In this document: positions 5,918 to 60,453 of the stretch, piece after piece
Layout of the letters: every line of letters starts with the position of its first letter
Numbering within the stretch: the stretch's first letter is position 1
Source: Flavobacteriales bacterium
Lineage (GTDB): Bacteria; Bacteroidota; Bacteroidia; Flavobacteriales; Flavobacteriaceae
Assembly (NCBI GenBank): GCA_011526365.1
Contig: WTIO01000059.1
Coordinates: forward strand, 50,791-114,790
DNA: 64,000 nt
Direction of reading: 5' to 3'
Position numbers and translations under genes: made by a program
The notes under the pieces: generated by a model
Seen by the model: the letters and a program-made list of their open reading frames with translations, nothing else
What the model was told of the DNA's origin: nothing
Database searches by the model: none

Positions 5918-5932
5918 TGGATAATTAAAAAT

Positions 5933-6029
5933 GGGCAAGCGATCTGTATCACACCGCTACAACCGCCTACCCTTGCTGCGTTCCCGCCCTGGGGGGATTC
6001 GGCAGGAGCTGGTTGTACAGGACTTGCCC
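5933..6029 (-). ncRNA. ffs: Bacterial small signal recognition particle RNA (4.5S-like)
   Basis: Minus strand GGGCAAGTCCTGTACAACCAGCTCCTGCCGAATCCCCCCAGGGCGGGAACGCAGCAAGGGTAGGCGGTTGTAGCGGTGTGATACAGATCGCTTGCCC: complementary ends (GGGCAAG/CTTGCCC), long rod, conserved GGGCGGGAACGCAGCAAGGGU apical domain. Confidence 0.92.
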
Positions 6030-6033
6030 AGCA

Positions 6034-6063
6034 CAAAAATACAGTTTTTAGCACGGGCCACAA
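6034..6063 (-). promoter_or_regulatory. Bacteroidetes-type promoter of SRP RNA (TTG-N19-TATTTTTG)
   Basis: Minus strand TTG at 6063-6061, 19-nt spacer, TATTTTTG at 6041-6034 (consensus TAnnTTTG), RNA 5' end 5 nt downstream. Confidence 0.75.
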
Positions 6064-38699: not shown

Positions 38700-40623
38700 G
38701 GTTTAGTCCAGTTTTTAACCAGTTGTAAAAAGTTTCCTTATCTGTATATTGAATGGGGGTATTGAGTAAACGCCCGTCTGGGGTGAGAAACACATAAAAA
38801 GGTTGTGAAGCCGACTGGAAGTTGAGCAATTGAAAACTGGCCCACTTCTTCCCTATTGTATTAATAGTAATAACAGCTCCGTTGCTTTGTTCAAATTTAA
38901 ACTGCTCCTTTTTTGGTAGGGGTGTTCGATCGTCCACATAGAGGGACACCAACACCAATTCTTTATCCATCAACTTAAACACTTCTGGTGCCGACCAAAT
39001 GTTTTCTTCCATTTTACGACAATTGACACAAGCCCAACCCGTGAAGTCCAGTAGCATGGGTTTGTTATTTTCCTCGGCCACCGCTTTTCCTGTTTCATAA
39101 TCCTTGTAACAGTCAAGTCCTAAGGGACAATCGTTGGCCGTATCTTTAAGGCTGTAAAATTCTGGGGGTGGAAAGCCACTGAGGAACTTTAAACGGTTGT
39201 CCTCTGCCCATAAGCCTTGTACCAAATAAAGGCTAAACAGGGCCATTAAAACCCCAAATCCTTTACGTGTAGCAGAGATCCCCCCTTTCCCTTCGTGTGG
39301 GAAACGGTAAACCCCAAATAAATAAAGACAAAACAATAATGACAAGAGCAACCAAATTCCAACAAACACCTCGCGTTTGAGCAGGCCCCAATGCCCTACC
39401 AAATCTGCGTTGGAGAGAAATTTTAAAGCCAATGCTAATTCTAAAAAACCTAAACCTACTTTAAGCGTGGTCATCCATCCCCCTGATTTGGGCAAACGAT
39501 CTAAGGTTTTTGGAAACAGGGCAAACAATCCAAATGGCAAGCCTAGGGCCAAGCCAAAACCTAACATCCCAAAACTCAATTGTAAGGCACCTTGGGTGCT
39601 GCTGATGGACCCTGCCAACAGTGCCCCTAAAATAGGGCCCGTACAAGAAAAAGACACCAAGGCTAGGGTAAGCGCCATAAAGAAAATTCCAATGACCCCT
39701 TTCCATTGTGAGGCTTCATCAGTACGCTGCGACCATTTGCTAGGGAGCGTCAGTTCAAAATAGCCAAAGAAAGAAAAAGCAAATACCACAAACACTATAA
39801 ATAGCACGGTGTTTATAACCACATTGGTGGCCAATTGATTGAGTATTTGAGGACTTAAACCCTCTAGAAAATGAAATGGCAGACTTAATAAAAAGTAAAT
39901 TAAGACAATAAAAAAGCCATACAATAGGGCCTTTAAGGTACCCCGTCCCTTGGGGCCTTGCTGTTTGACGAAATAGGACACCGTAAGTGGTATCATAGGA
40001 AACACACAGGGTGTTAGGAGGGCTAAAAATCCACCAAACATTCCCAATAAAAACAAGGTCAGTAAGCCACCATCTTGTGCCTGCTGTTGTGTGGGGGCAT
40101 AAGCAGCGGTGTTTTTTAAATCTATCTTTAGGGCGGCGGCTTTAGCAATACTGGCGGCATCAATAGATTTTTCTGCTGCTTCACTTTTTCCATCCAGTGA
40201 AAAAGTGAAGGATTCCGTCCTAAAAATACACAGTTTATCATCACAAGCCTGATATTCAATTTCGCCGCTTATTTGTGTGCGTGTAGGATCAGTAACTTTA
40301 ATGCGTTGTTCAAAGGTGGCTTGCCCGTCAAAATACAGCAATTCCATTTCAAAAATGGGGTCAAAAGCGGTAATGGGTTCACTTTCTGTCACAGGGCCAA
40401 GGCGGTTGTAGCCCTCACCTTCAAATAAAAATACAGTGGGAAGCGGACCATCTTCGGGCAAATCCTGTCCATAGAGATGCCATTTTTCTACTATACTGGC
40501 TTTAAAGCGCAGTACATATTCGGCGTTTCCAACAGCTTCCAGCTCAAAATTCCACTTTACCGGATCGGGCTGCGCCCAGCTGAAAAGTGAAACAAGAAAT
40601 AGGGGTACTAAGAATTTATACAT
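38692..40623 (-). CDS. Thiol:disulfide interchange protein DsbD-like
   Basis: N-terminal DsbD alpha-like domain, multi-TM CcdA-like core with LLTPCVFPMIPLTVSYF, C-terminal thioredoxin with DFTGWACVNCRKME. Confidence 0.93.
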   Translation of the reverse strand: MYKFLVPLFLVSLFSWAQPDPVKWNFELEAVGNAEYVLRFKASIVEKWHLYGQDLPEDGPLPTVFLFEGEGYNRLGPVTESEPITAFDPIFEMELLYFDGQATFEQRIKVTDPTRTQISGEIEYQACDDKLCIFRTESFTFSLDGKSEAAEKSIDAASIAKAAALKIDLKNTAAYAPTQQQAQDGGLLTLFLLGMFGGFLALLTPCVFPMIPLTVSYFVKQQGPKGRGTLKALLYGFFIVLIYFLLSLPFHFLEGLSPQILNQLATNVVINTVLFIVFVVFAFSFFGYFELTLPSKWSQRTDEASQWKGVIGIFFMALTLALVSFSCTGPILGALLAGSISSTQGALQLSFGMLGFGLALGLPFGLFALFPKTLDRLPKSGGWMTTLKVGLGFLELALALKFLSNADLVGHWGLLKREVFVGIWLLLSLLFCLYLFGVYRFPHEGKGGISATRKGFGVLMALFSLYLVQGLWAEDNRLKFLSGFPPPEFYSLKDTANDCPLGLDCYKDYETGKAVAEENNKPMLLDFTGWACVNCRKMEENIWSAPEVFKLMDKELVLVSLYVDDRTPLPKKEQFKFEQSNGAVITINTIGKKWASFQLLNFQSASQPFYVFLTPDGRLLNTPIQYTDKETFYNWLKTGLNRH

Positions 40624-41920
40624 CGATCTGGGTTATTACAAGTTGTTCATTTGTAGATGAATTGGCTGCAAATCTGCGGTCACAACGTTTGCCTACCACC
40701 CAAACAATGGCGTCACCGGAACACAACAACCACTGGTTTTGTTTGGCATGGAAGGTGTATTTTTCGTCTTTAAAATACTTACTAAGCAATTTTTTACCTA
40801 TCATTCCAGTGGGGTAAAAGTAATCCCCTTTTTTCCATTTTCTAAGCTTTAAGGGATAGTTTAACATTTGTGCATCTAAAATTGCCTGTTGGGGCTGGTA
40901 GGTTTGAGTGTTCGCCTTTGATGCGCTACTGATTTCCAACTTTATGGGCTGTGTTATGGCTGTTGTGCCTGCGTGTATAACTACACTGTCATCTGCAGAC
41001 TGCAATACTTTTGGACGCAAAATCAACTGCTTCCGTTCTTTGTCCAACTGATGCGTGGCAGAAATCAATTGCTTCCCTGAGGTGGCCTGTAGTAATTTTT
41101 CAACTTCTACTGCGGCAAAGCCATAAGGGCTAAAAAGTTGGTGCAATCCAAACTGTGGGGGCTGCAGGGAGTTCAACGCCGACAGGGGAAAGTGCTGACC
41201 CGCAGCGTCTGTATGGGTATGTTCCTGCTTCCAGGCATTAAAATACTGTTGAACAAATAGCTCGGTTTGCTGCAAGTGCTTTAGCGTTTGCGCCATGCCT
41301 TGTTGGGCAGTAGGAATATGGGTAGTAAGCTCGGGGACTACGCTATTTCGAAGCGCATTGCGCAGGTAGGTGTTGGAGGTGTTGGAAGTGTCCTCTCGCC
41401 ATGAAATCCCCTCTTTTTTTGCGTATTGGAGCAATTGAACTTTGGTATAGTGCCGCAACGGGCGTAACCGCCGCTGTTGGGCGTTGGGAATACCCAATAG
41501 CCCTTTAAGGCCTGAGCCTCTTAAGGCGTTAATTAAAAAGGTTTCCATTTGATCGTCCAAATGATGTCCTGTTACAATCCAATCTATTTTATAGTGGGTA
41601 CACAGCTGTTCAAACCAGGTGTACCGCAGTTCTCTAGCCGCCATTTGAATGGACCCCCCCTGTAGCTTTGCAAAAGATGTAGTGGCAAAGCGGGTACTAA
41701 ATAACCGTATGTTGTTAGCCGCAGCCCATTGCTGTACGAAAGCTGCATCAGCAGTACTTTCTTCCCCACGTAACTGAAAATTAGCGTGTGCTAAAACGAT
41801 ATGATGCCCTGTATTGTGCATACAATGTGCCAGTACCATACTGTCTACGCCTCCACTTACAGCAACAAGATAGGTGGTTTTGGTAGTACCATTTTTAGGA
41901 AGATCCAATTGGAGCATCAC
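40616..41920 (-). CDS. tilS: tRNA(Ile)-lysidine synthase
   Basis: PP-loop VAVSGGVDSMVLAH, HANFQLRGEES, DWIVTGHHLDDQMETFLINALRGSG. Confidence 0.95.
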   Translation of the reverse strand: MMLQLDLPKNGTTKTTYLVAVSGGVDSMVLAHCMHNTGHHIVLAHANFQLRGEESTADAAFVQQWAAANNIRLFSTRFATTSFAKLQGGSIQMAARELRYTWFEQLCTHYKIDWIVTGHHLDDQMETFLINALRGSGLKGLLGIPNAQQRRLRPLRHYTKVQLLQYAKKEGISWREDTSNTSNTYLRNALRNSVVPELTTHIPTAQQGMAQTLKHLQQTELFVQQYFNAWKQEHTHTDAAGQHFPLSALNSLQPPQFGLHQLFSPYGFAAVEVEKLLQATSGKQLISATHQLDKERKQLILRPKVLQSADDSVVIHAGTTAITQPIKLEISSASKANTQTYQPQQAILDAQMLNYPLKLRKWKKGDYFYPTGMIGKKLLSKYFKDEKYTFHAKQNQWLLCSGDAIVWVVGKRCDRRFAANSSTNEQLVITQIDV

Positions 41921-41995: not shown

Positions 41996-42026
41996 TTGTT
42001 GAAGTGAAGAAAAATGCAGTACTTTG
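41996..42026 (+). promoter_or_regulatory. Putative promoter of arginine operon leader (TTG ... TACTTTG)
   Basis: TTG at 41996-41998 or 41999-42001 and near-consensus TACTTTG at 42020-42026 (one nt shorter than TAnnTTTG), spacing 21 or 18 nt. Confidence 0.45.
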
Positions 42027-42031
42027 GAACA

Positions 42032-42115
42032 ATGAACGAAACACTGGTACATAACACACGTACTCCTAACGGACAAGCACCCAGCTTGCGCCGCCGCTTT
42101 CGTCGTCGCCCCTAG
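42032..42115 (+). CDS. Arginine-rich leader peptide of the arg operon: MNETLVHNTRTPNGQAPSLRRRFRRRP
   Basis: ATG AAC GAA ... TTG CGC CGC CGC TTT CGT CGT CGC CCC TAG; six Arg codons in seven directly before the Pro-stop, immediately upstream of a nine-gene arginine cluster; alternative in-frame ATG at 42014. Confidence 0.75.
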   Translation: MNETLVHNTRTPNGQAPSLRRRFRRRP

Positions 42116-42183
42116 GGGTGTTCTAATTTTTTAGGAGCACGGTGCGTCCGGCTCCCTTTCCACAACCGACTTTTCCTTTTTTT
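42076..42183 (+). promoter_or_regulatory. Putative transcription attenuator (competing RNA hairpins) for the arg operon
   Basis: Region 1 AGCACCC (42076-42082) pairs region 2 GGGUGUU (42116-42122); region 2 GUGUUCUAA (42118-42126) alternatively pairs UUAGGAGCAC (42131-42140); GGAGCACG (42134-42141) alternatively pairs CGU..GCUCC (to 42155); T-rich tract CTTTTCCTTTTTTT to 42183. Confidence 0.6.
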
Positions 42184-42201
42184 ATAACCAACTTTTTAAA
42201 G

Positions 42202-42810
42202 ATGGAGCTATTAATTGCTTCTGCTTCACATCGTATTTACGCCAAAGAAATAGCTGACTGTATTGCAGCCTCCGCTGCAGTGCGCGGTACCGGCATTGCG
42301 CGCCGAACTCCCGAGTATATTATTACTAAAATGGAAAATGGCAATGCCATCATTGCTTTGGACAACAAAAAATTTGTGGGCTTTTGCTATATCGAAGTTT
42401 GGGGCCACGGGAATTATGTTGCCCATTCAGGATTAATTGTCAACGAAGACTATCGGGGCCAAGGCATTGCTAAAAAAATAAAGAAAAAAACACTGGCCTT
42501 ATCCCTATCAAAATTTCCTAATGCCAAAATTTTTGGAATTACCACCGGTAAAGCCGTGCTTAAAATCAACACTGATTTAGGATATAAACCCGTTCATTTT
42601 TCGGAACTCACCGATGATCCAGAGTTTTGGAACGGCTGTCAGACCTGCAAAAATTACGATGTGCTAACGCGAACTTCAAGAACCATGTGTTTATGTACAG
42701 GGATGTTGTACGATCCTAAACGTGGAGCAACGAACACAAAAAAAACCGTTAAAGTCGCAACACATCTTCAATCCATTAAAAATCAATTCTTTTTAAAAAA
42801 AACCAAATGA
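42202..42810 (+). CDS. GNAT family N-acetyltransferase, candidate N-acyl-glutamate synthase (ArgA-like role)
   Basis: GNAT core VNEDYRGQGIAKKIKKKTLALS; first gene of arg operon; Cys-rich C-terminus GCQTCKNY...MCLCTGML; start at MELLIASASHRIY. Confidence 0.8.
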   Translation: MELLIASASHRIYAKEIADCIAASAAVRGTGIARRTPEYIITKMENGNAIIALDNKKFVGFCYIEVWGHGNYVAHSGLIVNEDYRGQGIAKKIKKKTLALSLSKFPNAKIFGITTGKAVLKINTDLGYKPVHFSELTDDPEFWNGCQTCKNYDVLTRTSRTMCLCTGMLYDPKRGATNTKKTVKVATHLQSIKNQFFLKKTK

Positions 42811-43991
42811 AAAAACTTGTTCTCGCTTATAGTGGAGGCCTAGACACCTCCTACTGTCTTAAAAAACTCAGTCAGGAAGGACATGAAGTACAGGCTGTAA
42901 CTGTTAATACAGGAGGCTTTTCGGCAGAAGAAATAGAATCCATGAAAGTAAAGGCGCTGCAACTGGGAGCAACACACTTTGAATGCATTCCCGCTGAGGA
43001 CCAATTTTACAAGCAGATTATTAAATACCTCATTTACGGGAATGTGTTGCGAAACAATACCTATCCTTTATGTGTGTCAGCAGAGCGTATTGTTCAGGCC
43101 TTGGCCTTAGTAGCATATGCCAAAGCAAATAAGGCTGATGGCATCGTACACGGCAGTACAGGGGCCGGGAACGATCAGGTGCGCTTTGACATGATCTTTC
43201 AAATTAAAGCCCCTGAAATTCCCATCATTACGCCCATACGTGACGGAAAACTCCAACGGGAAGAAGAAATTGACTACCTAAAATCTCAAGGTGTAGTAAT
43301 GCACTGGGACAAGGCAACCTACTCCATAAACAAAGGCCTGTGGGGAACCTCTGTAGGAGGAAAAGAAACCCTTACCGCTGATCAGCACTTGCCCGAAGCA
43401 GCCTATCCTTCTCCCTTATCAGCCATGGGCTCTCAAAACCTGTCAATACATTTTAAGCAGGGAGAACTTGTGGGCATAAACAACCAAAAAGGGGCACCCG
43501 TAACTTTAATCCAGAGTTTACAGGAAATAGCTTCTAAATACGCCATTGGTAGAGACCTTCACGTAGGCGATACCATAGTGGGCATTAAAGGACGCGTGGG
43601 CTTTGAAGCTGCTGCGCCACTAATTTTAATAAAAGCCCACCATTTATTAGAAAAGCACACCCTTAGCAAATGGCAACAGTTTCAAAAAGAACAGTTGAGT
43701 AGTTTTTATGGCATGCAACTGCACGAGGGGAATTACCTGGACCCTGTGATGCGTGACATTGAGCAGTTTTTAAGCAGCAGTCAAAAAACCGTTTCAGGTA
43801 CGGTTAAAGTCCAATTGGCCCCCTACCGCTTTGAATTGCTTGGCGTAAAATCAAAACATGATTTAATGCAATCCGATTTTGGCCAGTATGGGGAAGAAAA
43901 CACCCTGTGGACAGCCGCAGAAGCCAAGGGCTTTATAAAGGTACAAGCTACCACACAAAAAATCTATCAACAAGTCAATAACAAAGCATGA
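42807..43991 (+). CDS. argG: Argininosuccinate synthase
   Basis: KLVLAYSGGLDTSYCLKKL, HGSTGAGNDQVRFDM. Confidence 0.97.
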   Translation: MKKLVLAYSGGLDTSYCLKKLSQEGHEVQAVTVNTGGFSAEEIESMKVKALQLGATHFECIPAEDQFYKQIIKYLIYGNVLRNNTYPLCVSAERIVQALALVAYAKANKADGIVHGSTGAGNDQVRFDMIFQIKAPEIPIITPIRDGKLQREEEIDYLKSQGVVMHWDKATYSINKGLWGTSVGGKETLTADQHLPEAAYPSPLSAMGSQNLSIHFKQGELVGINNQKGAPVTLIQSLQEIASKYAIGRDLHVGDTIVGIKGRVGFEAAAPLILIKAHHLLEKHTLSKWQQFQKEQLSSFYGMQLHEGNYLDPVMRDIEQFLSSSQKTVSGTVKVQLAPYRFELLGVKSKHDLMQSDFGQYGEENTLWTAAEAKGFIKVQATTQKIYQQVNNKA

Positions 43992-44962
43992 CAACAGTAG
44001 GAATCATAGGAGGATCGGGGTATACTGGTGGTGAATTGGTACGCTTAGTACTACAACATCCAGCACTAGAATTAGAATTTGTTTACAGTCGTTCACAGGC
44101 AGGAAAAGCACTGCACGAGGTACATCCAGACCTTTATGGACAAAGTAGGTTGCATTTTACTCAAGAAATCAATGCAAACGTCAATGTCCTTTTCCTGTGC
44201 ATGGGACATGGGAAGTCTCGTGAATTTTTATCAAACCATCCCGTATCAACTAAAACCATCATCATTGATCTCAGTCAGGATTTTAGAAATGCACCAACCA
44301 ACGTTTACCAAGACAGAAACTTTGTTTATGGCCTCCCTGAATTGCAGGGCACTGAAATTGAAAACGCTACTGACATAGCCAATCCAGGTTGCTTTGCTAC
44401 TGCCATAGCATTGGCCCTACTGCCCCTAGCAAAAGCGAATGCATTGCAGCAACAAAGCGTCCATGTGCATGCCACCACAGGGAGTACAGGTGCTGGGGTA
44501 CTGCCGTCAGCAACGTCTCATTTCAGTTGGCGAACGGCAAATATGTCCTGGTATAAACCCTTTACACATCAACATTTAACCGAAATTCAAGCCACATTAC
44601 AGCAGGACACGGAAGCAATCGATTTGATTTTTCTTCCACACAGAGGGCCGTTTGCACGAGGCATATTTGCCACGGCCTACACCCTATATAATGGGACTTT
44701 AAAAGACGCCTACAGCTTGTATGAAAACTATTATGCACAGGCCCCTTTTACGCATGTAGTGCCAGCGCCAGTTCATTTAAAGCAAGTAACAGGCAGCAAC
44801 AATTGTATGTTGCACTTACACCTACACGACAACATTCTTCTCATTACCAGCGTAATTGATAACCTTATTAAGGGAGCCGCAGGCCAGGCCCTGCAAAACC
44901 TAAACCTCATCATGGGCTGGGAAGAACATTTAGGCCTTCAATTAAAAACCAACATCTTTTAA
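43988..44962 (+). CDS. argC: N-acetyl-gamma-glutamyl-phosphate reductase
   Basis: GIIGGSGYTGGELVRLVLQHP, NPGCFATAIALALLPL, HRGPFARGIFAT. Confidence 0.97.
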   Translation: MTTVGIIGGSGYTGGELVRLVLQHPALELEFVYSRSQAGKALHEVHPDLYGQSRLHFTQEINANVNVLFLCMGHGKSREFLSNHPVSTKTIIIDLSQDFRNAPTNVYQDRNFVYGLPELQGTEIENATDIANPGCFATAIALALLPLAKANALQQQSVHVHATTGSTGAGVLPSATSHFSWRTANMSWYKPFTHQHLTEIQATLQQDTEAIDLIFLPHRGPFARGIFATAYTLYNGTLKDAYSLYENYYAQAPFTHVVPAPVHLKQVTGSNNCMLHLHLHDNILLITSVIDNLIKGAAGQALQNLNLIMGWEEHLGLQLKTNIF

Positions 44963-44965
44963 ACT

Positions 44966-45760
44966 ATGAAAATTGCCATCATTGGGACCGGAAATTTAGG
45001 ATTGAGCATTGCCAAAGGCATCATGGATAACAAAAGTTTTACCACCTTGTATTTGACCAAACGCCAGCCGGAAACTTTAGCCCTCTACAAGGGAATCCCT
45101 AACCTACACCTTACTAGTTCAAACACGGAAGCAGCTGAGCATGCCGATATTTTAATTTTTGCTGTACAACCTCAAAATCTTGTCGCGGTAGTACTTGAAG
45201 TATTGGGTGTTTTACACGACAAACACGTGCTAATTTCCACCGCTACGGGAGTGAAAATTAAAACCATTGAAACCCTCACAGGAGCGAGTATCCCCATAAT
45301 TCGGGCTATGCCCAATACGGCTTCAGCAGTAAGTCGTTCGATGACCTGCTTGTGTGCCAATAGCGTTGGAGAAAAATACCTCCCCATAGCAGAAGCGATT
45401 TTTAACAATTTAGGAGAAAGCATCACCATAGAGGAGTCTTTGATGCAACCTGCCACCGTCCTGTGTGCCAGTGGCATTGCCTTTTGGATGCGGTGTATCC
45501 GTGCCTTTACTCAAGGGGGCGTACAAATGGGTTTTGATGCGGATAAGGCCCTGCAAATGACAGCACACACAGCACTGGGAGCTGCCGCCCTACTCCTAGA
45601 AGCAGGGACCCACCCAGAACAGGAAATTGATAAGGTAACCACCCCCAAAGGATGCACAATCACTGGACTGAATGAAATGGAACATCAGGGCCTAAGCACA
45701 GCCATTATAAAGGGGCTTGTGGCCTCTTACCACAAAATTAACAAGATCGCAGAAGTATGA
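44966..45760 (+). CDS. proC: Pyrroline-5-carboxylate reductase
   Basis: IIGTGNLGLSIAKGI, IRAMPNTASAVSRSMTCL, TPKGCTITGLNEME. Confidence 0.95.
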   Translation: MKIAIIGTGNLGLSIAKGIMDNKSFTTLYLTKRQPETLALYKGIPNLHLTSSNTEAAEHADILIFAVQPQNLVAVVLEVLGVLHDKHVLISTATGVKIKTIETLTGASIPIIRAMPNTASAVSRSMTCLCANSVGEKYLPIAEAIFNNLGESITIEESLMQPATVLCASGIAFWMRCIRAFTQGGVQMGFDADKALQMTAHTALGAAALLLEAGTHPEQEIDKVTTPKGCTITGLNEMEHQGLSTAIIKGLVASYHKINKIAEV

Positions 45761-46878
45761 AATTGTTTGATGTTTATCCACGCTATGCAATTGCCCCAGT
45801 TCGGGCAAACGATGTATTTGTATATGACGCTGAAGACCAGGCCTATTTAGATTTGTACGGCGGGCATGCCGTCATTTCTATTGGCCATCAACACCCGCAG
45901 TTTACTGCCGCTTTAAAAGCACAAATGGAACAATTGATGTATTATTCCAATGCAGTGGAAAATCCTTTGCAAGAGGAACTTGCCCAACGCCTAGACAGTG
46001 CCTGTGGAATGAAGGACTACCAGCTGTTCCTGTGTAGCACAGGAGCAGAAGCCAATGAAAATGCGCTTAAACTGGCTTCTTTTCACACTCAAAAAAGTCG
46101 TGTTGTGGCGTTTTACAACAGTTTTCATGGAAGAACTAGTGCTGCAGTAGCGGCCACCGATAGTCCCAAGCTTCGGGCGCCTATTAATACACATCATAAG
46201 GTAGATTTTCTTCCATTTAATGCCCCTCAAAAGTTAGAAGCCCTGCTTCAACAAGGGGATGTTGCCGCAGTAATTATAGAATGCATTCAAGGGGTGGGAG
46301 GCTTAGCACAACCCGAAACAGCATTTGTGCAACAACTGCAACAGCTGTGTTTAAAATACGACTGCTTACTCATTGCAGACGAAGTGCAAAGCGGATTTGG
46401 AAGAACGGGACACTTTTTTGCTTTTCAGGCCTATGGCATCCAACCCGATATTATTAGCATGGCCAAGGGTATGGGGAATGGCTTTCCGGTAGGGGGTGTT
46501 CTCATTCATCCAAAAATAACACCTTCCTATGGCTTGCTGGGGACCACCTTTGGGGGCAACCATTTAGCTTGTAGCGCAGTACTGGCTGTTTTAGAAGTAA
46601 TAATCGCTGAAGCCTTGATGGAAAACGCTACAGCTATGGGAGATTACTTTTTTACCAAAATGGAGAAATTCCCTCACCTTATTCCAAAAGGAAAGGGACT
46701 CATGCTGGGCATCGATTGTGGTACTCCTGTGGCTGAAATCCGAAAAGAATTGCTGTACAAACACAACATTTTTACTGGGGGAAGCAGCAATGCCAACCTC
46801 TTGCGTTTACTCCCCCCGCTTTCACTGAAAACCACCCACTGGGATCAATTTTTTTCTGCCTTAAAAAATGTTTTATGA
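45757..46878 (+). CDS. argD: Acetylornithine/succinylornithine aminotransferase family protein
   Basis: DLYGGHAVISIGHQHP, LIADEVQSGFGRTGHFFAFQ, SMAKGMGNGFPVGGVL; arg cluster context. Confidence 0.95.
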   Translation: MKLFDVYPRYAIAPVRANDVFVYDAEDQAYLDLYGGHAVISIGHQHPQFTAALKAQMEQLMYYSNAVENPLQEELAQRLDSACGMKDYQLFLCSTGAEANENALKLASFHTQKSRVVAFYNSFHGRTSAAVAATDSPKLRAPINTHHKVDFLPFNAPQKLEALLQQGDVAAVIIECIQGVGGLAQPETAFVQQLQQLCLKYDCLLIADEVQSGFGRTGHFFAFQAYGIQPDIISMAKGMGNGFPVGGVLIHPKITPSYGLLGTTFGGNHLACSAVLAVLEVIIAEALMENATAMGDYFFTKMEKFPHLIPKGKGLMLGIDCGTPVAEIRKELLYKHNIFTGGSSNANLLRLLPPLSLKTTHWDQFFSALKNVL

Positions 46879-47825
46879 AGCACTTTATACAACTTAACGA
46901 TATTGAAAATATGGACCGCTTTCTAGAGGGCATCCATCAATTAAAACAATCCCCTTTGGCACATCAGCATTTAGGAGCAAATAAAACATTGGGAATGCTG
47001 TTCTTTAATCCCAGCTTGCGCACGCGACTGAGTACCCAAAAGGCCGCACAACAATTGGGAATGCATAGTATGGTGATGAATTTTACCGGTGAAGGCTGGA
47101 AGCTAGAATTTGAAGATGGGGTCATTATGACTGGAAATGCGGCTGAACACATTAGAGAAGCGGCTGCGGTGGTGTCCCAGTACTTTGATGTATTGGCAGT
47201 TCGTGCTTTTGCTTCTCTAGAAGACAAAGAAAAAGACCTGGCAGAAACGGTGATCAAGGGCTTTCAAGACTACGGCAGCATACCCGTTATGAATTTGGAA
47301 AGTGCTACAGCACATCCGCTTCAAGCACTTGCCGATGCGGTAACCCTTCAAGAATTTCAAAAAGTAAAACGCCCCAAGGTCGTGTTGAGTTGGGCTCCAC
47401 ATCCCCGCGCCCTTCCGCATGCCGTAGCCAATTCTTTTGTGAAAATGATGCACTATTTGGAGGTAGATTTTAGTATTGCCCATCCAAAGGGGTATGCCCT
47501 AAACCCAAAACTCACCCAAGGAATTCCAATTGCTAACGATCAAGAAGCGGCCTTTGAAAATGCAGATTTTATTTACACCAAAAATTGGAGTGCTTTTGAT
47601 GCCTATGGGACACAGCCTCCGGTGGGGCAAGATTGGCAAATTACAGCAGCAAAAATGCAAGCTACCAACAACGCCTATTTTATGCACTGCTTGCCTGTAC
47701 GTCGAAATGTGGTGGTGGAGGCCAAGGTGTTAGACAGTCCACAATCTTTAGTTATTGCCCAAGCCAACAACAGAACTTATGCCGCACAGGCAGTGTTAAA
47801 AACACTTTTAGAGCATGCAACTTAA
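46875..47825 (+). CDS. argF': N-acyl (acetyl/succinyl) ornithine carbamoyltransferase, argF' type
   Basis: FFNPSLRTRLSTQKAA (carbamoyl-phosphate site), GWKLEFEDGVIM, HPLQALADAVTL, HCLPVRRNVVVEAKV; resembles Bacteroides succinylornithine transcarbamylase type rather than canonical OTC. Confidence 0.88.
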   Translation: MKHFIQLNDIENMDRFLEGIHQLKQSPLAHQHLGANKTLGMLFFNPSLRTRLSTQKAAQQLGMHSMVMNFTGEGWKLEFEDGVIMTGNAAEHIREAAAVVSQYFDVLAVRAFASLEDKEKDLAETVIKGFQDYGSIPVMNLESATAHPLQALADAVTLQEFQKVKRPKVVLSWAPHPRALPHAVANSFVKMMHYLEVDFSIAHPKGYALNPKLTQGIPIANDQEAAFENADFIYTKNWSAFDAYGTQPPVGQDWQITAAKMQATNNAYFMHCLPVRRNVVVEAKVLDSPQSLVIAQANNRTYAAQAVLKTLLEHAT

Positions 47826-48585
47826 TATTGTAAAAATTGGTGGTCCTGTTGTGGAAGATCCACAGTTACTTCCAGGAATTTTAAAAGATTTTGCCCGTTT
47901 AGAAGGACCAAAAGTTTTAGTACATGGTGGAGGTAAGGCCGCAAGTGAAGTGGCAAAACAATTGGACGTACCGGTACAAATGACCAACGGAAGACGCATT
48001 ACGGACACGGCAACCTTAGCCATTGCTACCATGGTGTATGCCGGAAAAATCAACAAGGAAATAGTGGCCCAGTTGCAGCAGTACAATTGTAATGCTATAG
48101 GTCTTAGTGGTGCAGATGCCAATGTAATTCGAGCCAAAAAACGTTCTCCCTCCCCTATTGATTACGGCTGGGTAGGAGACATTGAAGCGGTAAACACCAC
48201 GGTGTTAAATCACTTCCTCAATACCTTAAAACTTAGCCCAGTATGCTGTGCCTTAACCCACGACAAACAAGGACAATTGCTTAACACCAATGCCGATAGT
48301 ATTGCTGCAGCTTTGGCCATTGCTCTTCAACCCCATTTTGATGTAAGGTTACTGTTTTGTTCTGACACCCATGGGGTGTATGCCGACCTTAGTAATCCAG
48401 CATCTTTAATTCCCCAACTGGAGCATGCACACTACAAAAATTTAATTGAGCGTGGAGTTATAACGGCAGGAATGCTCCCCAAATTAGACAATGCCTTCAC
48501 CGCCTTGCAACAAGGTGTAAGTAGTGTTGCTATTGGTGGCCCAAAAAGTTTGTCTCCAAACGCAAAAAAAACACAACTCATTTAG
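47815..48585 (+). CDS. argB: Acetylglutamate (or succinylglutamate) kinase
   Basis: IVKIGGPVVED, LVHGGGKAASEVAKQL, GVITAGMLPKLDNAFTALQQGVSSVAIG. Confidence 0.95.
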   Translation: MQLNIVKIGGPVVEDPQLLPGILKDFARLEGPKVLVHGGGKAASEVAKQLDVPVQMTNGRRITDTATLAIATMVYAGKINKEIVAQLQQYNCNAIGLSGADANVIRAKKRSPSPIDYGWVGDIEAVNTTVLNHFLNTLKLSPVCCALTHDKQGQLLNTNADSIAAALAIALQPHFDVRLLFCSDTHGVYADLSNPASLIPQLEHAHYKNLIERGVITAGMLPKLDNAFTALQQGVSSVAIGGPKSLSPNAKKTQLI

Positions 48586-48588
48586 CTT

Positions 48589-49644
48589 ATGGAAAATCTT
48601 ATTGCCTCTAGTGTAGCACTATTACGACAACTCATTCACACGCCATCCTTTTCGGGGGAAGAACAACAAACTGCAGCACTAATAAAAGATTGGTTCCGCA
48701 ACCACAACATTCCAACAAAATCTATGGGAAATAGTGTATGGGCAAAAAATAAGCATTTTGATTCCACTAAGCCCACCCTCCTACTAAATTCACATCAGGA
48801 TACGGTGAAACCAAATGCTGCCTACACCCGCGATCCCTTTGATCCTGGAACAAGTGCTTCTGTTATCCAAGGGTTGGGGAGCAATGACGCCGGTGGTGCT
48901 TTGGTAGCTTTGATGGCGACGTTTGTACATTTTTACCACAAAGAAAATTTAAACTACAATCTCGTTGTGGTCGCTAGTGTAGAAGAAGAAACAGCAGGGG
49001 AAAACAGCTTGCGTGGCATCCTCCATAAGCTTCCTAAAATTGACGCGGCCATAGTGGGGGAACCTACCCAAATGCAACTGGCCATAGCAGAAAAAGGGCT
49101 TCTCGTATTTGACGGCTATATTCACGGTACCCCAGGTCATGCAGCACACCCAAATGCAGACAACCCCCTCTATAAAATTCCTGAGGTAATCGATTGGATT
49201 GCCAACTTTAAGTTTGAAAAAACAGGCCCTGCTTTAGGGCCTGTTAAAATGACCCTCACCCAAATAGCGGCAGGGACACAACACAATGTTATTCCTGCTA
49301 AAGTACATTTTGTGCTCGATGTTCGGGTTAATGACGGCTATACCAACAAAGAACTTGTAGCACTCCTACAAGCCCAAGCCCCCTGCGACTTGCAACCACG
49401 CTCAACCCATTTAAACTCCTCTTCTATTTCGAAAACCCACCCCTTGGTGGAAGCGGGAATAGCACTGGGCAGAGGAACTTATGGCTCTCCTACATTGTCG
49501 GATATGGCCGCCTTAGACTGTCCGGCCATAAAACTAGGACCCGGAAAATCTCAACGTTCACACCAAGCCGATGAATATATTTTGGTGGAAGAAATAGACG
49601 AAGCCATACGACTTTACACACAACTTATTCAAAACCTTAAGTAG
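48589..49644 (+). CDS. argE: M20 family N-acyl-ornithine deacylase
   Basis: LLLNSHQDTVKPN, GLGSNDAGGALVAL, EEETAGENS, IVGEPTQMQLAIAEKGLL. Confidence 0.92.
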   Translation: MENLIASSVALLRQLIHTPSFSGEEQQTAALIKDWFRNHNIPTKSMGNSVWAKNKHFDSTKPTLLLNSHQDTVKPNAAYTRDPFDPGTSASVIQGLGSNDAGGALVALMATFVHFYHKENLNYNLVVVASVEEETAGENSLRGILHKLPKIDAAIVGEPTQMQLAIAEKGLLVFDGYIHGTPGHAAHPNADNPLYKIPEVIDWIANFKFEKTGPALGPVKMTLTQIAAGTQHNVIPAKVHFVLDVRVNDGYTNKELVALLQAQAPCDLQPRSTHLNSSSISKTHPLVEAGIALGRGTYGSPTLSDMAALDCPAIKLGPGKSQRSHQADEYILVEEIDEAIRLYTQLIQNLK

Positions 49645-49647
49645 CTT

Positions 49648-50931
49648 ATGAAACTTTGGAATTCTGGTACAGTAGTACCACAGCAAATTGACTCATTTAC
49701 CGTTGGAAACGATCGGGAAATTGACATGCACCTGGCCGTTTACGACTGCCAAGCCTCGGCAGCACATGCCAAAATGCTAGCACATGTAGGACTCCTTGCC
49801 CAAGATGAAGCCGAACAGTTGGTAAATGCACTACAAAAAATTGAGGCACAGGCTACCGCAGGAGAACTTAGTATTGAAGAAGCATTTGAAGACATTCATT
49901 CTAAAATTGAATATGAATTGATACAGGCACTTGGGCCGCTGGGAAAAAAAATCCATATGGGACGCTCAAGAAACGACCAAGTGCTAACAGCCCTACAGCT
50001 CTACATTAAAGCCGAACTCAACGCAATAACCTCCCTGACGGAAGAACTTTTTAACGCCTTGCTAGAGTTAGCAGAAACACATCAAAAGGACTTAATGCCA
50101 GGGTACACCCATATGCAGGTGGCCATGCCCTCCTCCTTTGGCTTGTGGTTTTCGGCCTATGCCGAAGCACTAATAGATGACATCTACCTGTTGCAAGCAG
50201 CACATAAATTGGCCGATCAGAATCCTTTGGGCAGTGCTGCAGGCTTTGGAAGTAGTTTTGCTATAGATCGGGAAATGACTACAAAAACCCTTGGTTTTGG
50301 CGATTTGAGCTATAATGTGATCAAGGCCCAAATGGGGCGTGGGAAAGTAGAAAAAGCAACGGCCACAGGGATTTCCTACCTCGCCGCTACCCTTTCGAAA
50401 TTTGCTATGGACATTTGTTTATACATGGGGCAAGATTATGGCTTTATACGCTTTCCAGATGCGCTAACCACAGGATCTAGCATTATGCCACACAAAAAAA
50501 ATCCCGATGTTTTTGAGTTGATTCGAGGAAAGTGCAACCTGCTGCAGGGATTGCCCAATCAGTTGAGTTTGTTGTGCACAAATTTACCCAGCGGCTACCA
50601 CAGAGAACTTCAATTAACTAAAACTTTGCTTATTAACGGTATCAACGAGTTAAAATCCTGTTTGGAACTATTTCTCTGGTGCATTCCACAAATTGAGGTG
50701 CAAAAAAACTTGCTCGAGGCCTCAAAGTACGACAGCCTGTTTAGTGTGGACACCCTAAACGTTTGGGTACAAGAAGGGATGCCCTTTCGTGACGCCTACC
50801 AAAAAATGAAAACCGTAATCGCCTCGGGAGAATTTAAACCTAAAAAAGATATCCCCCACACCCATTTGGGGAGCAGGGGAAATTTAGCTCTGGCAGCGCT
50901 CCGCAAAAAAATGGCAGCAGCACTACAATAA
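49648..50931 (+). CDS. argH: Argininosuccinate lyase
   Basis: EDIHSKIEYELIQALG, HMGRSRNDQVLTALQLY, TGSSIMPHKKNPDVFELIRGK. Confidence 0.97.
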   Translation: MKLWNSGTVVPQQIDSFTVGNDREIDMHLAVYDCQASAAHAKMLAHVGLLAQDEAEQLVNALQKIEAQATAGELSIEEAFEDIHSKIEYELIQALGPLGKKIHMGRSRNDQVLTALQLYIKAELNAITSLTEELFNALLELAETHQKDLMPGYTHMQVAMPSSFGLWFSAYAEALIDDIYLLQAAHKLADQNPLGSAAGFGSSFAIDREMTTKTLGFGDLSYNVIKAQMGRGKVEKATATGISYLAATLSKFAMDICLYMGQDYGFIRFPDALTTGSSIMPHKKNPDVFELIRGKCNLLQGLPNQLSLLCTNLPSGYHRELQLTKTLLINGINELKSCLELFLWCIPQIEVQKNLLEASKYDSLFSVDTLNVWVQEGMPFRDAYQKMKTVIASGEFKPKKDIPHTHLGSRGNLALAALRKKMAAALQ

Positions 50932-60368: not shown

Positions 60369-60453
60369 GGAGAAATGGCAGAGTGGTCGAATGCGGCAGT
60401 CTTGAAAACTGTTGAGGGTCACACCTCCGGGGGTTCGAATCCCTCTTTCTCCG
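60369..60453 (+). tRNA. tRNA-Ser (UGA)
   Basis: GGAGAAA/TTTCTCC acceptor, anticodon stem-loop CAGTCTTGAAAACTG with TGA, long variable arm, GGTTCGAATCC T-loop, 85 nt. Confidence 0.96.

Follow-up and report, generated by a model that had tools for sequence, protein, structure and literature searches.

Arginine biosynthesis genes in the window, by which we mean the whole 64,000-nucleotide stretch of Flavobacteriales DNA analysed here, are probably preceded by a cis-acting leader-peptide attenuator that reads Arg codons, has an unconventional output, is specific to the arg operon and occurs as one clear copy per genome within the family. The element consists of a short Arg-rich ORF, a hairpin that overlaps its end (HP-A), and a second hairpin with a nearly invariant tip (HP-B) (Table 1). 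Comparison of the leader sequences of relatives establishes that the ORF, HP-A and HP-B are conserved; we infer that the ORF is translated and that ribosomes stall on it, as well as the direction in which control works and the form of its output. An initial annotation of this DNA had proposed an arginine-sensing attenuator with mutually exclusive hairpins. The Arg-sensing leader before the arg operon is supported, with hairpins under selection and ArgR not found, whereas the three-stem switch between antiterminator and terminator is not.

Table 1. Features of the arg leader and operon (window coordinates).
Feature	Position	Strand	Basis or remark
Promoter -7-like box TACTTTG (near TAnnTTTG)	42020..42026	+	Sequence; one base off consensus
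Leader ORF MNETLVHNTRTPNGQAPSLRRRFRRRP*, 27 codons	42032..42115	+	Arg-rich ORF ends here in 187/191 HP-B-bearing leaders
Arg codon run CGC CGC CGC TTT CGT CGT CGC, proposed stall site	42089..42109	+	Sequence
HP-A: CGCCC (42107-42111) / GGGUG (42116-42120), -5.9 kcal/mol	42107..42120	+	Folding; relatives
U-rich linker, HP-A to HP-B	42121..42133	+	Relatives: 19-23 nt between GGGU and HP-B tip
HP-B: GGAGC (42134-42138) / GCUCC (42151-42155), bulge, tip GG-UGCGU-CC (42141-42149), -12.3 kcal/mol	42134..42155	+	Folding, covariation
Spacer to first gene, T-rich CTTTCC and CTTTTCCTTTTTTT	42156..42201	+	Lacks a terminator-grade hairpin directly before a U tract
First gene, GNAT-type N-acetyltransferase	42202..42810	+	Label from reading of the sequence; no NCBIfam match
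argG, argC, proC, argD, N-acetylornithine carbamoyltransferase, argB, argE/dapE-like deacylase, argH	42807..50931	+	NCBIfam names (genes 2-9)

Leader ORF and the conserved hairpins

The genome to which the window belongs (1.9 Mb, 82 contigs) is 84% complete, and its closest named relatives are Flavobacteriaceae and Flavobacteriia MAGs. The leader ORF ends with CGC CGC CGC TTT CGT CGT CGC CCC TAG, and a nine-gene arginine cluster starts 86 nt 3' of it. The NCBIfam names of genes 2-9 bore out the cluster as initially described, the GNAT label of gene 1 resting on our reading of its sequence. The ORF, its codons and coordinates, the gap of 86 nt and the quoted complementary segments were all present as claimed. 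Of 20,000 shuffles of the 280-nt intergenic stretch, run as a test of chance, 2 gave 6 Arg among the last 9 codons ahead of a stop. The start codon lies 5 nt 3' of the TACTTTG box, which would place the start of the leader ORF at the very 5' end of the mRNA or only a few nt from it. TAnnTTTG is given as the -7 box of Flavobacterium in PMC9723704. In relatives, it clusters ~100-140 nt (single leader) or ~260 nt (tandem leader) 5' of HP-B and, where found, typically stands 4-8 nt ahead of the leader ATG; it falls between HP-B and the gene in only 2 of 191 leaders. The divergent neighbour (window 40616-41920, minus strand) resembles tRNA(Ile)-lysidine synthase (TilS) in sequence.

Leaders of the orthologous first gene were compared in two partly overlapping sets of 130 and 79 upstream regions, 209 in total. 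GGTGNGTCC or a close form of it lay within 200 nt of the gene in 115 of the 130 leaders of the first set, and a slightly wider form of the HP-B motif was present in 191 of the 209 leaders of both sets. The initial annotation had suggested looking in relatives for Arg-rich mini-ORFs and for compensatory changes in its stems. The mini-ORFs proved to be conserved: an Arg-rich ORF, usually ending RRP*, stops just before the HP-B motif in 187 of the 191 HP-B-bearing leaders. Compensatory changes were found in the HP-B stem, which covaries, and in a few versions of HP-A, but not in the proposed pairing of the linker with HP-B (regions 2 and 3).

A covariance model of HP-A plus HP-B gave one clear match per genome. 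Clear matches came from 23 of 292 genomes of the order, all in the window's family, although the strict filters miss some members, so that absence from a single genome proves nothing. The in-family matches whose surroundings were read lie upstream of the GNAT-arg cluster. Among 396 genomes of the phylum, there was no convincing match outside the family; weak matches there, among them a CRISPR-like repeat (L186) and some unrelated sequence, were rejected as copies. As a general motif, GGUGNGUCC was likewise discarded: it has 29 copies in the window's own genome, with the stem, judged by eye, only at the arg copy. No Rfam relative, Bacteroid-trp and Flavo-1 included, was detected in the window at gathering level, in the window leader at E up to 10 or in six relatives at E up to 1.

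The minimum-energy fold of the whole window leader is exactly HP-A and HP-B. Among 31 relatives, both sides change in 6 of the 8 HP-B pairs, and the covariation score of the whole structure is 0.263, compared with 0.092 when shuffled and 0.027-0.061 when slid; in an all-against-all scan, the HP-B stem alone stands out. By covariation, HP-B is thus established as an RNA hairpin under selection. Across 186 leaders, the HP-B tip, A-GG-UGNGU-CC, hardly changes, in contrast to the freely variable stem; an otherwise fixed inner pair changes from G-C to A-U in L131, L180 and L182. The tip is kept in L022 and L143, where HP-A lacks GGG, and a different hairpin tip is found in L027 and L070. HP-B was also considered for its resemblance to the GUCCY-hairpin motif, which is listed in PMC2864571 and has no Rfam entry, and the AGGUG within it resembles a Shine-Dalgarno sequence.

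In HP-A, the last Arg codon lies within the stem and the TAG stop codon within the loop. A hairpin of the 1:2 type, overlapping the codon run and the stop as in his/trp attenuators, is therefore present; the conserved pairing, however, is CGCCC with GGGUG and not AGCACCC with GGGUGUU as initially annotated. Its inner three pairs are possible in 184-186 of 186 leaders. Compensated versions are few (for example, CGCAC/GTGCG in L174), and covariation support is much weaker than for HP-B because HP-A is nearly fixed, its 5' arm being dictated by the Arg and Pro codons. Counted from the first nucleotide of the final Arg codon, HP-B begins ~27 nt further on; a stalled ribosome would therefore not cover it. 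In relatives, the distance from HP-B to the gene ranges from 56 to 182 nt, whereas the spacing between HP-A and HP-B is nearly constant, which is consistent with control that acts before the gene is translated and not by hiding its start.

Tests for a terminator and an antiterminator

Textbook His-codon leaders precede hisG at 23 loci (L277-L303), whereas a His-run search found none in the window's own genome (L294). These his leaders of related genomes served as a yardstick: in 23 of 23, a stable hairpin (-10 to -20 kcal/mol) is followed by 6-8 U in 8 nt. By comparison, HP-B of the arg leaders is followed by a mean of 2.5 U in the next 8 nt, and by 6 U in only 1 of 191. On these numbers, HP-B was rejected as an intrinsic terminator for the family. 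The GC-rich hairpin of region 3, which had been annotated as the terminator, thus lacks a U tract across the family, as against the perfect tracts of the his leaders. The short T tract that the same annotation had named as its own weak point is indeed one, being CTTTCC in the window and also weak family-wide.

For the proposed 2:3 stem, GUGUUCU...AGGAGCAC is a possible pairing of -7.6 kcal/mol in the window, but HP-B is stronger (-12.3 kcal/mol) and relatives show no conserved competitor. Pairing of the linker with HP-B gained no support, with real linkers at -3.6 kcal/mol compared with -4.2 kcal/mol for shuffled ones and with no covariation. In a search for a competitor of the HP-B 5' strand in the ORF region or linker, swap and shuffle tests gave p > 0.37 throughout, as opposed to p ~1e-21 for the true 3' strand; these p-values ignore relatedness, which makes false positives, if anything, likelier. 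A mimic of the HP-B 3' strand within the ORF, of the kind apparently present in his leaders, gave no signal, and the all-against-all covariation scan revealed no conserved antiterminator. The three bases after GGGUG (42121-42123 in the window, and their equivalents in relatives) read YRY in 62 of 107 leaders, compared with 14.5% expected, a pattern that shows no covariation and was recognised post hoc, in the very data on which it was then tested. In this register, their partner would be the GUG in the HP-B tip, in a weak duplex of -0.8 to -4.0 kcal/mol.

Proposed mechanism and alternative readings

Arginine operons under ArgR control share the pathway and the signal with the operon described here. 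Flavobacteriales differ: a search with a single domain model (PF01316) found ArgR in 0 of 98 genomes, with Bacteroides and other controls positive. Sensing of arginine by a leader peptide is therefore plausible. We propose that transcription would begin beside the leader start codon. With charged tRNA-Arg in short supply, the ribosome would stall on the CGY run and cover the 5' arm of HP-A, which would stay open; when arginine is plentiful, the ribosome would end at the stop codon inside HP-A and leave, allowing HP-A to fold. HP-A lies a nearly constant distance upstream of HP-B, and whether it is open or folded would then determine if HP-B lowers expression of the arg operon. The sensor half of this scheme, an Arg-codon ORF that would be read by the ribosome and an HP-A that would be covered on stalling, is well supported by the sequence comparisons. 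The output would most likely be a premature loss of transcription elongation through a factor-dependent or a weak, atypical terminator, not a canonical intrinsic one.

Several other explanations were weighed against this attenuator. On its own, the window fold is unremarkable, being no more stable than shuffles (z = -0.36), so a single sequence would be unconvincing and conservation is the real proof; an Arg-rich ORF that lies beside unrelated hairpins by chance is refuted by conservation over many genera with covariation, and we give it virtually no credence. A textbook attenuator of the his/trp type, in which stalling would free region 2 to form an antiterminator with region 3 and HP-B would otherwise terminate intrinsically, has the expected short ORF rich in cognate codons ahead of the arg operon, and HP-A with its stop codon in the loop resembles the trp 1:2 hairpin. 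The 2:3 pairing of the window is also possible, and in every leader that has GGG, its GGGU can pair with the GUCC in the HP-B tip, with YRY, where it occurs, fitting GUG. Yet no competitor of the HP-B 5' strand covaries or beats shuffles, the GGGU-YRY duplex is weak and post hoc, HP-B outcompetes the 2:3 stem in the window, and the U tract seen in every his leader is missing, which leaves such a switch unlikely.

The two chief alternatives for the output involve Rho or decay and a factor that recognises the HP-B tip. Rho-dependent termination or mRNA decay, in which a ribosome on the Arg codons would expose or hide a Rho or RNase target near HP-B, is conceivable and somewhat easier to reconcile with the data, though we consider it doubtful. 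In Salmonella, the Arg codons of orf34 govern speF through Rho and RNase G, with no intrinsic terminator involved (PMC6386406), and the spacer 3' of HP-B appears mostly unstructured and A-rich, and C-containing too in one class of genera; on the other hand, a rut or RNase site is not recognisable from the sequence, and the spacer measures only ~50 nt in most genera. HP-B might instead be the recognition element of an arg-specific factor, a protein or a ligand, with the leader ORF merely modulating its exposure. This would suit a tip that is almost unchanging on a variable stem and persists in the two leaders whose HP-A lacks GGG, as well as the single clear match per genome and a stem confined, by eye, to the arg copy. 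However, no candidate factor is known, and L027 and L070 carry another tip; we regard this, too, as improbable. A broader version is offered tentatively, as a possibility that we do not favour: HP-B could be the receiver in a switch of a new kind, serving not as a terminator but as a hairpin recognised by RNA polymerase, the ribosome or an arg-specific factor, and coupled to an Arg leader peptide, or in many genera to two in tandem, in place of ArgR.

Tandem leaders and related systems

L004, L013, L016, L076, L103 and about 65 other leaders contain an additional, upstream Arg-rich ORF at -330 to -205 from the gene, for example MKNLKNKIRCTTPGLPVRNRRRF*. It sits inside a long AU-rich stem, AAAATAAAATACGT / ACGTAATTTTTATTTTTT, the 3' arm of which extends to the start of the second ORF. 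Base pairing joins the start regions of the two ORFs in some tandem leaders. The second ORF retains an ATG, GTG or TTG at its start position, as judged by eye. Two Arg-rich leader ORFs in tandem occur in many genera, and the arrangement suggests that they are coupled. The element is absent from some genera. The large genus g147 (L189-L193) lacks HP-A and HP-B and has another short ORF, MNKISLHITSLSRTNSPITSPEVRTLSL*, in which Arg codons are few (two CGG) and the start region of which can pair with downstream TTTATTCAT. Arg-rich short ORFs also precede the same gene in other families of the order (L026, L030), where they lack the HP-B tip; in L030, a hairpin is followed by TTTTATTTC.

Compared with his/trp/thr attenuators, including the his leaders of Flavobacteriaceae, the arg leader is alike in its cognate-codon ORF, its hairpin over the codons and stop, and its second hairpin before the first gene; it differs in having neither a U-tract terminator nor a conserved antiterminator and in the nearly invariant HP-B tip that it has instead. 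Leader-peptide Arg codons also sense arginine in Salmonella speF/orf34 (PMC6386406) and S. aureus rbfL (PMC13009471). The former controls a polyamine gene through Rho and RNase G, the latter controls biofilm genes by blocking a ribosome-binding site, and no architectural similarity to the arg leader was seen in either. For Flavobacterium psychrophilum, the main text of PMC9723704 presents strong indications that amino-acid operons are under leader-peptide attenuation, together with structured 5' regions, and reports that the pheA and hisG elements are conserved in other genera. Leader-peptide attenuation in Flavobacteria is thus already known as a kind from that text, which covers the same family as the arg leader and names no arginine element, although its supplement may. 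The arginine element, its nearly fixed tip and the absent terminator appear new relative to Rfam and to the literature searched, which included few subscription papers.

The leader offers an answer to how arginine synthesis may be controlled without ArgR in a large bacterial family, and it extends the range of operons that probably have a leader-peptide sensor to arginine biosynthesis. It also represents an RNA element that is widespread in this family, has an almost fixed tip and is absent from Rfam. The contrast with textbook his leaders in related genomes makes the terminator-less output of the proposed attenuator directly testable. Elsewhere in the window, Rfam identified a Bacteroidales small SRP RNA (5929-6036, minus strand) and a tRNA (60369-60453, plus strand).
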